From a virus: 38,157 nucleotides of DNA. The stretch lies in the IMG/VR virus record IMGVR_UViG_3300017960_000031, positions 1 through 38,157 of that record. One strand, given 5' to 3'. Under the pieces are notes generated by a model. That model was not told where the DNA came from. It saw nothing but the letters and a program-made list of their open reading frames with translations, and searched no databases. Made by a program: the position numbers and the translations under genes. Positions 2,658-8,600 of this stretch are shown here, one piece after another. Position 1 is the stretch's first letter; every line of letters begins with the position of its first letter.

Positions 2658-5600
2658 TTATCCGCCCAAATTCGAGCGCAGATTGAAAGTGATGACGATA
2701 TACAAAAGCGGGAAAACGGGCTGATAGAAAGCCTCGACTTCGACGATGGTCGGGTCGTTGGTCGTCCGTGCCTGAATCCCAGTGAACGCCGTGATGATCT
2801 CGGCGTTCTTGAGCGCCTTCATCGTGGTCGAGAGCTGACCCTCGATCTGACTGAGCACACCCGGGAGGAACTTGATGCCGATGAAGCGATCAAGGTCTCG
2901 TCGAGCTGCCCGCTGCACCTCGTCCGCGATGGTGATCACGGTCGGGAGCTTGGTCAGAATGTTGCTCATGTCCGTGGTGAGGCCCTGACGGACCCGGATC
3001 ACGGTGCCACGCTGATCAAGGACGGTGACGCCCTGAACCGCAACCTGGTTCTGCTCGACAGCGTCCAGCGTCCGTGCGAGCTGGTCGAACCCGACGATGC
3101 GTGCCCGCGTCCACGGGGTTGCCACGTCAATGTTCGGGCTCGCCCGGTTACCGGTCATGGCCGCAGCCAAGAAGGTGCCATCGAGCAGGAACTGCTTGTC
3201 ATTGCCGAGGGCGTCCTGGACGGTGAGCGTCACGATGTCCGGGTAGACCAGACGGATGCGGGTGCTCTGGATCTGCTGAGCGATGCCTCCCACGTCAGTG
3301 GGTTGCGTGCCCGAAGCCACTCCGATGATGCCCGTACGCTCCGCTCGGAAGCGGATGCTGGACTGGATGTCGCAGTGGTTCTTGAGGGACAAGAACAGGT
3401 CCACATCATCACCCTTGAGCGGGGTGATGGTGTCGAGAACCGCACCACCAGGCAGAGGGCCACGCAAGTCGTTGAGCGCGTCGATGAAAGTCGGCGTGCT
3501 GGCCTGGTTGCTGCCCGGGATCTTCGGCACCTGCTTGATGCCGAGGACCACAGCTCCGTTCAAGAACCCGAGGAACGCCGCGAGAGACACCGGGTTATCC
3601 GGGCTGATCTCACCGTAGTTCCGCTCCACCGCCCGCTGGTTGGTGAAGAGCTGGGTCTCGAAGTCGGCCTCCGTCTTGGAGTAGTTGTAGGTGACGAAGT
3701 AGCTGTCACCCACCGCCGGCTCCTGACCGCCACGGTCGAAGGTCTCGACGATGGCCGTATCGCCCGTCGGGATGGTCGAACCTTCGGTGTTCGCCACCGT
3801 GAGCTCGAGGCCAGGAAGCGAGTTGACCGGGACGTTGGCGTCCGTGGTCACCAAGCGCCGTACCTCGAAGGTGAAGAACGCCCCCGGTCCGATCGGGTAG
3901 TCTGCACCACCCTCACGCGGGAGGATGGTGAAGACAAGCCCCGTGACCGTGTCACGGTAGCTCTGACCGATGACGCCGTCCTGACCCGTGCCGTTGTTGA
4001 GGCACGAGGTGTTGGCCGAACCGGAACCGTCGATGGGATCGGAGCTCGTGACGTAGAAGCCCTGGAACCCATTTTCGCCCGAAGCACCGTCGCCCGACTG
4101 GACCCGAAGGCCAGTACCGGTACGGAGCCAGGAGTCGGTCGTCGCGTCCAGGAACACGATGTTCGAGGAAGCGCCCAGACCCACGATGTTGTTGGCCTGC
4201 GACTGGATGAACAGGAACTCCGCGTTGCTGGAGTCCACTTCCTTGGCCGCCAGAGCCTGAGCCGCGAACCAGTTCGCGTCGGGGCTCTGGTAATCGAGCA
4301 GCACACCATTGATGGTCGTGCTGTGGTGCATCATCAGCGCCGAAGCCACCTTCTCGACCTGCACCGAGTCACGGGTAGCCGTGGCGCCCTCGGAGAACCC
4401 GAGCACGTCGTTGGCGTTGCCGTTGTCGATGGTCACAGCCGAGTTGGTATCCACCAGTTGCGAGACGAGTCGCATACCGGCACCTTCGGGGGCGACCGTC
4501 ATGGGCGAGAGACCCGCACCCACAACCGCCGTCTGAATCTGGCTGAGGATGGTGTTCGGCGTACCGAGCGGCCCAAGCGGAACCGTAGCGGTACCCGCCG
4601 TCGGGATGGCGAACCCAGAAGCGTCCGTGAACACGACGGTGACGGGAGTGCCATCAACGTTGAACTTGAACACGTTGTTCTGGGGGTTGACCCCGTTCGG
4701 TCCGAAGAACTGGACCTGGGGCTGACCGTCTCGAGCGTCGCCGAAGGTACCCGAGGGCACCTGACCATCCGCGAACCCGACTTCGCCGTAGAGCGTCGCC
4801 GGCTGAATCACAGCACCGATGCCCGCCTCGCCGAAGGCACGGGAAGCCAGTCCCGTCTCGTCGTTGGCGTTGGTTCCCTGTATGACCAGGTTGGTCTGAG
4901 CAACCTGGCTTTCCGGACGAATGGAACCGGACCCCGGAGTGACGCGGTTGCGCATGATGATGCGGTCGTAGATCAGACGACCACTCACACCCGCTGCCGT
5001 GAAGCGGCGAGCCACATCACCATCGACGATCTTGGTCTGCTCCTGGCTCGGGAGCGAATCCGTAGACAGACCGGCCAGAACCGCGAAGTCCACAGCCAAA
5101 GACGCGCCATCGAGGAACTCGAACACACCGCCGCCGAGCCCGGAGCCACCCGTGAGAGTCGCCGCCGACACCGGGAGACGGACCATGTCGCTCGAGGAGA
5201 GCGTGATGAAGTTCCCCTGCGGGCCTGGGACCGCCGCCGTGAGGTCCACAGTGGAGGAAGTGCCGGAGCTGTTGTCGGCCGTGACGAGCGTGTCCAGACC
5301 GTTGAGTGGATCGGTGATGGCCGTAACGATGGTCGTCGCCACACCCACGTCGGTGAGACCACCACCAAACACACCACCCGAGAGCGGGAGACGCACCGGA
5401 GTCGAGCTCGCCAAAGTGATGCCGTTGCCAGCCACACCCGGAACGTTGGCCCACACGGTCACCGTGGTGCTCGTGCCGCCCTCATTGTCCGCCGAGATAT
5501 CAGCCGCAAGACCGTTACCCAGGTCGTTGATCGCCGCCGCGATGGAAGCAGCCACCGTGAAATCGGTGCCCACACCACCCTGGAGAGTGACCGCCGACAT

Positions 5601-8600
5601 GAGGAGACGGCTTGCATCCGAGCTCGTCGTGTCGATGATGTTGCCCGCGTTGCCGGGGGTGACAGCGGTCATGGTGACCACATTGCCCACCGCCATCGCA
5701 CTCACCGTGGCACTGATGCCGTTACCAGCATCGTTGATGGCTGCCGCGATGGAAGCCGCCACAGTGGTGTCGTCACCAACACCGCCGAGGAGACTCGCGC
5801 CCGAGAGCATGATGCGAACACCACCCGTGCTCTCGAAGAGCAGGATGCCATCACCTACCAGGCCCGGCGTAAACGAATCGAGAGTGACCACCGCCGACGT
5901 ACCGCCCACGTTATCAGCCACAATGTCGGTCAGGCCGTTCGCAGGATCGGTGATGGCCGCCACCAGGCTTGTCGCCGCCGAGATGTCGTCGCCGAGACCA
6001 CCGGTGAAGGACCCCCCCGAAAGGACGAAACGACCCGCTGCCGTAGTACTCAGAGCGATGAGGTTGCCCGCAGCGCCCGGAGTCACAGCCGTGAGATTCA
6101 CGTTGCTGCCCACCGCAACAGCGGTTGCGGTAGCGGTGAAAGAGTTCAACGCATCGTTGATGGCAGCCGCAGCGTCCGTCGCAGCGGTGTTGTTGTCACC
6201 AACACCACCAGCAAGGAAGCCACCACCGAAGGTGAGTCGAGCAGGCGTGGTCGAAACCGTGCTGATCGAGTCGCCCGCCACACCCGGAGCCAACGCCTGG
6301 ATGTTGACGGTAGCCGAAGTGCCACCGGTGTTGTGAGCCTGGATGAGAGCATCCAAACCATTGAGCGGGTCAAGGATCGCCGCGACGATGGCCGTCGCAG
6401 TGGTGATCTCGTCGCCCACACCGCCGCCGAAGCCACCGGTCGTGGTGACCGTACCGTCGGAGCTACTGTTGACGACACCGTTGGAGAGCACACCCGGAAC
6501 CGTCCAGATCAGGGTCACATCCGCCGGCCCAGGACCTGCCGCCGCGCTCATGAACGTGGCGAAGGAGTTGGACGGATCGTTGATCGCAGCAGCGATCTCA
6601 CCCGCGATGGCAGCCGTGGTGCCGAGAGTCTCGTCGTAGTCGTTCGCACCCGGGGTACGAGGACCACCCGCCGGAGTCAGCGGGAAGGGGCCGCCGTTGA
6701 GACCACCCACGTCGATCGTGATCGTCGCGCTGGCCGGAGAAGCGGTCACGGTCAGCGTGTCCGTCGCCTGAGTACCAGCGTCGAAGTTGAGACCACCAGG
6801 TGTGGTCACGCTGTCCGCCACCAGAGGGATGCCGTTGATGGTGATCGTGTCACCGTACAAGACACCCGTGCTGGGACCGAGAGAATCGGCCACGACGGTC
6901 AGAGTTCCGACAGAGCGAGTACCCGCGTCGAAGTCATCGAAACCCGGAGTACGGGCACCTTCAACCGGAGTGAGGACCGAACCGCCGATGGTAACCGTGT
7001 CCGCCGGGGTGACGGGGAACGGCGCCATGGTGGCGGGTCGCACGCCCATGGTCATGAAGTCACCCGTGGCTGCGGTGCCGACGTTGAAGTCCAGACCACC
7101 AGGGGTGAGCGTGTTGCTGGCCGTCAGAGTGACGAGACCACCACCCACGACCGAAGCGTCGATGGTGATGGTGTCGCCGTACACGACGCTGGCGAGGGTA
7201 GCCGAACCGGTCGAACGGGTGCCTTCGTCGAAGTCCAGACCACCCGGGGACTGCATTCCCAAAGCGGTCAGAGTGATGCCGTCAACGGTAACCGTGTCGT
7301 TCGGGATCGGCCCGCTCACGGTGATGGTGCCGCTCGCCTGGACGCCCTCATTGAAGTTGAGGCCACCCGGAGTCTGAGCTCCGGCTGCGGTCAGGAGAAC
7401 CGGGCCACCGCCCACTGCCGTGGTATCGATGGTGATGGTGTCACCAGGCTGAACGCCGGCAGCCATGATGGTGCCTCGAGCTTGGCCGGTGTCGTAGTCG
7501 AGACCGCCGGGAGTGACCCCAAGGGAACCGGTAAGCGTGATGCCTCCAATCTCGATGGTGTCTCCCAGAACCGAAGCCACGTTGGTGACGGTGCCGGTCG
7601 CGAAGGTACCGAGGTCAGTGTCGGCACCTGTGAAGGTGAACCGCATCTGACCGTCCGCGTTCGCCGTGCAGGTCACGTCCACACCATCGTAGGCTGCCGG
7701 GAGAGCAGCGATGGCGGTGTCGAGTGCGGAGTTCACCGCAGCAGCCAGCGCGTTCGGGGACACGTAGATACCCGGGGCGATGGTCGCCGTCACCGGGCCA
7801 GTGCTGCCGTTGGTGACGCCCGTGTAGTTGAACGTGAGGGTGTCGTACTCACCAGCCGTGATGGTCGTGGTTCCGAGGAACCGCGTCACGCCGTCGTAGT
7901 ACGGGTTGTTGTCAGCGAGCTTGGACTCAGCGTTGATCGCCTCGACGTAGGCATCGGCGTTCACGCCCGTCTGTGCCGGGACGTTCACCGTGACCACCAC
8001 GTTGTCCACCGTGAACGAGATGTTGTCGTTCAGACCGGCGAGAACATCGTAGGTCGTCTTGCCCGAGTCGTCGGTGTAGACAATCTCCTCACCAAGGAGC
8101 GAGGCGTTGAAACCGAGACCCGCGATGCCGTGTGGCGCCGAGAGATCGATGCCGGCCGCACCGCCCGCCAGCGGAGAGCTGTCGATGGTGAACCGAGCTC
8201 GGTCCGACTGACTTTCGACGAAGAAATACGGGCCCGAACCGGGAACCGTGAACTTGCCGATCGTCGAGTCCTTGTCGGAGAACTGAATGGTGACGGTTTC
8301 CTCGACGGGGCCTTGCGTGCCGCCCTCGAAGTGAACGTCGGGAGTGATCTCCGAGCCGCTCGGGAACTGGATCGTGACGCCGGTGAGCGCCGGACCCTTG
8401 CTACCGAACTTCGGCGTGTAGACCGGGTTCCCGTTGCTGTCGAACAGGAAGTAGGTACCGATGCCCGACGGTCCGCTGGTCTCAACCTGAACGGTGTACT
8501 CCTCATCGACGAGGATGTTGTACCAGAAGGTCGCCCAAACCTCGGCGCCCACGGGCACCGGCTGCTCGAGGGTGATCTCCGTACCCTGAACCTGCGTCAC

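Follow-up and report, generated by a model that had tools for sequence, protein, structure and literature searches.

Nested domain insertion usually involves a single level, and six levels were highlighted as extreme in a survey from 2026 that covered 2.7 million domains (PMC13114784). The Si3 region of cyanobacterial RNA polymerase, made up of HABAS or hybrid-motif domains, has a recursive A1-B1-C-B2-A2 order built largely from one domain type (PMC13114784). Among contractile phage tails, the multi-domain (type 3) sheaths of the T4 gp18 kind form a core from their N- and C-terminal parts and carry extra beta-rich domains in between (PMC9230969). Some of these extra domains are built jointly by the outgoing and the returning chain, the most domains are found in jumbo phages, and adhesion or contact with neighbouring subunits has been suggested as their role (PMC9230969).

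Here we describe an array in the window, by which we mean the whole 38,157-nucleotide stretch analysed (a 38-kb virus record). Like Si3, the array appears recursive and largely of one domain type. Si3 belongs to an unrelated protein and has six branched levels comprising eight domains, whereas the array would have seven levels without branching, all inserted at one constant point. The hybrid-motif domains of Si3 lie in the beta' subunit and the array lies in a sheath gene with matches to sheath-like folds, and the resemblance is one of architecture only. Like the type 3 sheaths, the array-bearing protein has an N- and C-terminal core with inserts; unlike them, with their few different domains, it seems to hold a single type of domain, nested within itself seven times over.

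Layout of the array and its gene

The array occupies residues 835-1657 of a 2485-residue protein (window 5145-7613, minus strand) and consists of seven N-halves followed by seven C-halves of one domain of ~115 residues. The N-halves span residues 835-1162, with starts at 835, 877, 925, 965, 1013, 1065 and 1115. The C-half block spans residues 1163-1657, with starts at 1163, 1232, 1305, 1374, 1447, 1515 and 1587. To represent the intact domain we built a profile HMM from relatives that have a single domain, together with the N7C1 segments of ten sheaths. N7 and C1 together match this profile end to end (positions 1-119, E 5e-53). Matches to lone N-halves are confined to model positions 1 to ~50, and those to the other six C-halves to positions ~50-118 (E 6e-9 to 1e-13). 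Of the six lone N-halves, three exceed the HMM threshold in the window ORF and five in L003, a sub-fragment of the same ORF; the rest were positioned by alignment. The break in the profile is constant at ~50/51. Since every half shows the same break, the cut site is constant and falls in the loop that links the TPGGxDFD motif to the AAAIN helix.

An inner domain is thus contiguous (1-119) and the outer ones are split around it (1-50 and 51-118), and the halves do not alternate as they do in an ordinary N-C-N-C tandem repeat. The initial annotation had read the region as seven N-halves and then seven C-halves, a reading borne out by alignment and HMM in ten lineages, and had placed it at 5120-7571; the array is there, with slightly different limits. 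It had also recognized N7-C1 as the only intact copy and the two half types as parts of one domain, and both points hold, the latter also through intact single copies in other proteins.

The array very probably comprises seven nested copies of a single insertional domain. Each copy would interrupt the next copy outward in its mid-domain loop, which lies between ..TPGGxDFDxG and xxTAAxxAAAIN, so that N-half i folds with C-half 8-i, and a sheath domain would hold the outermost copy in one of its loops. The features are as follows, with proposed partners and, in brackets, the evidence.

10115 to 2658, minus strand: predicted contractile tail sheath protein gene, 2485 aa (tblastn homology)
7614 to 7898, minus strand: host sheath domain, first part, ending ..FTGADTDLG (uninterrupted here in array-free relatives; boundary approximate)
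7488 to 7613, minus strand: N-half 1, proposed outermost shell, partner C7 (alignment, co-divergence)
7344 to 7487, minus strand: N-half 2, proposed partner C6 (HMM, co-divergence)
7224 to 7343, minus strand: N-half 3, proposed partner C5, strongest co-divergence (N3 and C5 change subtype in L011, L013 and L018)
7080 to 7223, minus strand: N-half 4, proposed partner C4 (co-divergence)
6924 to 7079, minus strand: N-half 5, proposed partner C3, weakest pair (co-divergence)
6774 to 6923, minus strand: N-half 6, proposed partner C2 (co-divergence, two-shell AlphaFold2 model)
6630 to 6773, minus strand: N-half 7, adjoining C1 in the sole intact copy (HMM 1-119)
6423 to 6629, minus strand: C-half 1, innermost domain with N7 (HMM, two-shell AlphaFold2 model)
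6204 to 6422, minus strand: C-half 2, would close the N6 shell (HMM, co-divergence, two-shell AlphaFold2 model)
5997 to 6203, minus strand: C-half 3, would close the N5 shell (HMM, co-divergence)
5778 to 5996, minus strand: C-half 4, would close the N4 shell (HMM, co-divergence)
5574 to 5777, minus strand: C-half 5, would close the N3 shell (HMM, co-divergence)
5358 to 5573, minus strand: C-half 6, would close the N2 shell (HMM, co-divergence)
5145 to 5357, minus strand: C-half 7, would close the outermost N1 shell (HMM, co-divergence)
5046 to 5144, minus strand: host sheath domain, second part, GLGGGVFEFLDGASLAVDFAVLAG.. (joins the pre-array part in array-free relatives; boundary approximate)

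By homology to annotated sheaths over the conserved N- and C-terminal core, the array-bearing protein is a contractile tail sheath protein. In tblastn searches it is 47.7% identical to a protein of a 485-kb uncultured phage, the tail sheath annotated in Tunturiibacter phage Tunturi_5 matches it across query residues 9 to 2480, and annotated tail sheaths of Bacillus phage G and mycobacteriophages match the ~380 residues at its C-terminus (E 6e-25 to 1e-12). Pfam, NCBIfam and PHROGs gave no informative domain name over the whole sheath or the array. The window sheath scores below the cutoff of Pfam Phage_sheath_1C; for Phage_sheath_domII (PF17481) the window array gave no hit, and the copy in L041 reached 10.4 bits against a curated cutoff of 31.4. 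The tail sheath family phrog_165 matches within the domain family, and a PDB sequence search with the family profile returned no match. Opposite the sheath gene, on the antisense strand, lies an open frame 2321 codons long (window:3303-10268, plus strand), which is probably a by-product of GC-rich codon usage. The record also carries a DNA methyltransferase-like gene (window:300-1376, minus strand; PHROG 116, E 1e-74), with the sheath gene two genes upstream.

Conservation and history of the array

The 7+7 arrangement is kept exactly, in one open frame each, in ten distinct clusters of full-length sheaths: a 64.7-kb contig carries a sheath identical to that of the window, and nine more clusters of full-length relatives share the array. 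Array identity among these relatives falls to ~50-58%, and the array dN/dS of ~0.07-0.19 is near that of the flanks. Judged from these coding sequences, the array is evolving under purifying selection. The intact frame across ten clusters and the low dN/dS together exclude chance and misassembly, and retention of seven copies over ~50% divergence suggests a set length. The largest array-bearing contig has 618,736 bases (L007), which places the array in giant phages. A frameshift in N6, close to where the contig stops, interrupts the array frame in L086 (3857-6101); it probably reflects an error of sequencing or assembly. L081 and L089/L210 are 100% identical to the window over the N-half region and stop inside the array, where the assemblies probably broke at repeats.

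Full-length sheaths formed 58 clusters, of which 42 have no copy of the domain by HMM, six have one intact copy and ten have 7+7. Lengths are 1591-1884 residues, as against 2454-2488 for the 7+7 sheaths. None of the 58 has two to six shells, and relatives with 5+5 or 6+6 copies, which the initial annotation had suggested seeking, are accordingly absent from this set. Searches of genome contigs yielded two array-free relatives. A tree built from the parts of the sheath that lie outside the array groups the 7+7 sheaths in a single clade with support 1.0 (one leaf beyond the labelled sheaths was taken as the window's own copy). Four sheaths, each with a single intact copy at the array site, make up its sister group, and the change from one to seven shells therefore maps to a single branch. 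The best matches of the sister-clade domain are scattered among the shells, N1/C7 not being the best, contrary to what simple outside-in growth would lead one to expect. When shells are partitioned by similarity, 1, 3 and 5 against 2, 4 and 6 is the best division for N-halves and for N- and C-halves combined; with only six shells the signal is weak, and it hints at growth by two-shell units.

The same domain occurs elsewhere in phage proteins. A 312-aa protein (L039:12649-13584, plus strand) has a host domain of a related kind interrupted by a complete copy, in the order N-N-C-C, with junctions ..GEDFAVV / QATATAT...FDGSVD / GTATNLAAAI... The insert is clean, ~108 residues long, and lies in the same mid-domain loop as the array shells. 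In four homologues this host domain is uninterrupted (L028 at 15004, L112 at 12234, L115 at 13401 and L030 at 17996), just as the array-free sheaths provide an empty site for the array itself. A plain alignment program, unprompted, set this nest against N6-N7-C1-C2. Single copies are found in varied virion-like proteins of large phages (L177-L194, ORF starts near locus position 3300-3700), among them beta-helical-looking proteins of 523-551 aa and proteins of 1172-1196 aa. The sheaths of L139 and L167 carry a copy of a related domain at a different site, after ..SYTLIGFAQ and ..AFTIIGFAQ, so sheaths acquired the domain more than once. None of the loci examined had a lone half outside such an array, and a tblastn search with one domain against a phage collection gave no match. 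On the best reading, the domain behaves as a mobile insertional domain of phage virion proteins, one that would have entered its own loop repeatedly to produce the array.

The nesting could also be real and have arisen by another route, in which N- and C-halves multiplied separately by unequal crossing-over and selection kept their numbers equal. The N-halves are homologous tandem repeats that could recombine, and this route would sit well with the lack of sheath intermediates among the 58 clusters. Against it, the L039 protein and its empty-site relatives display whole-domain insertion in this very loop, and counts of N- and C-halves are equal in 10 of 10 lineages; unequal counts, which would have spoken against nesting altogether, were not found. 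Similarity among the paralogous halves also bears on the point. When relationships among N-halves are compared with those among C-halves, mirror order (N1 with C7, through to N7 with C1) gives r=0.65, rank 72 of the 5040 possible pairings, and same order gives r=0.03. This mirror congruence, found with a comparison that the initial annotation had proposed, suggests that both halves of a shell were copied together. We consider separate crossing-over unlikely and prefer recursive self-insertion of the whole domain.

Pairing of N-halves with C-halves

We measured the divergence of each half between orthologues, subtracted general divergence, and scored the covariation of N-halves with C-halves over all 5040 one-to-one pairings. 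The sample holds ten distinct orthologues only. With nine of them, mirror order ranks first of 5040 in all four variants of the test, and with ten it ranks first or second in 12 variants. When any single shell is dropped, the nested pairing is still first or second of 720. In column bootstraps (n=200), mirror order falls in the top 1% in 84.5% of replicates and same order in none. Compared with all 13 other halves, most halves are closest to their mirror partner, despite the ~750 residues that separate N1 from C7, and halves adjacent in the chain show no excess co-divergence. This speaks against local recombination as the explanation. The clearest pair is N3-C5, in which both halves switch subtype together, with small deletions, in the three lineages listed above. 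The weakest is N5-C3, whose co-divergence vanishes in some variants (r 0.01).

Structure prediction was informative for the centre of the array. An AlphaFold2 model of N6-N7-C1-C2 (243 residues, 32-row alignment) has pLDDT 84.8 and pTM 0.70, and the outer halves N6 and C2 are about as confident as the inner domain. From this model we infer a contact between N6 and C2, as expected if split halves form one folding unit. The whole array (14 rows) was predicted with low confidence (pLDDT 42.6), and no topology was taken from it; the structural check advised in the initial annotation thus succeeded for the two innermost shells and failed for the full length. Among solved structures, the two-shell model matches the cyanophage A-1(L) sheath best (PDB 8kee, E 3.2e-5, prob 1.00), over ~138 alignment columns of the 243-residue query with TMq 0.34, or about one domain. 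Other myophage sheaths match more weakly, and many uncultured phage virion proteins in a viral structure library match as well. The insertion domains of the A-1(L) and other myophage sheaths give no indication of nesting of the array's kind.

It is very unlikely that the halves are independent units, the N-halves forming a stack of beta repeats and the C-halves a stack of alpha/beta repeats that share no domains. In the full model, which has low confidence, each half does show a regular secondary-structure pattern of its own; half-units folding as separate domains were not predicted with confidence. Such units are hard to reconcile with the intact domain that stands alone in many proteins while lone halves were seen only in arrays in the loci examined, with the confident placement of N6 and C2 within one two-shell model, or with one-to-one mirror co-divergence. 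We give the least credence, and very little, to two blocks amplified apart in which Ni folds with Ci, interlocked instead of nested: subtypes in the window agree in 6 of 7 such pairs and C6 resembles C7 more than N1 resembles N2, but same order ranks only 244-2107 of 5040 by co-divergence, lacks paralogue congruence, and leans on a long loop that is lost or shortened in N2 of L010, L011, L013, L018 and L103 and in N7 of L103, and is thus a poor pairing marker. The subtypes in the initial annotation (long-loop N2, N4 and N7; GGTS-like C2, C4, C6 and C7) are right for the window, and only its same-order argument from them fails. Its nested, or matryoshka, model is the topology supported here by mirror co-divergence, paralogue congruence, the two-shell model and the L039 nest with its four empty-site homologues.

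A proposed tail arm and its significance

From the nested, mirror-paired topology we infer a linear, double-tethered stalk of seven beads, with N1/C7 at the base, N7/C1 at the tip and two strands at each junction. The chain would climb out and come back to the sheath core at the point where it left it. Tandem copies placed in an internal loop could bring the chain home only by folding back, whereas nested copies would do so automatically. Recursive self-insertion could extend a straight arm from mid-chain while both chain ends return to the core. Assuming ~3-4 nm per bead, each sheath subunit would bear one arm reaching 20-28 nm from the tail surface. By analogy with other extra sheath domains, these arms probably decorate the tail exterior, as adhesion whiskers or by cementing adjacent subunits.

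Nested insertion as such is already known; what is new is seven homotypic levels, in a phage. We found no precedent for recursive or self-inserted phage domains in the open-licence literature, within which the nesting would be at least as deep as any reported. On balance we favour the view that this is the deepest nested domain insertion described: an unbranched series in which one mobile, self-inserting domain has seven shells kept by selection within an eighth, host domain. The array raises a folding question, as the outermost domain would close only after some 750 residues have been made, together with the questions of how the recursion originated at the DNA level and why seven is kept. It suggests a design rule by which nesting extends an arm out of an internal loop without parting the two ends of the chain, and it draws attention to a mobile insertional domain that giant phages carry in many virion proteins.
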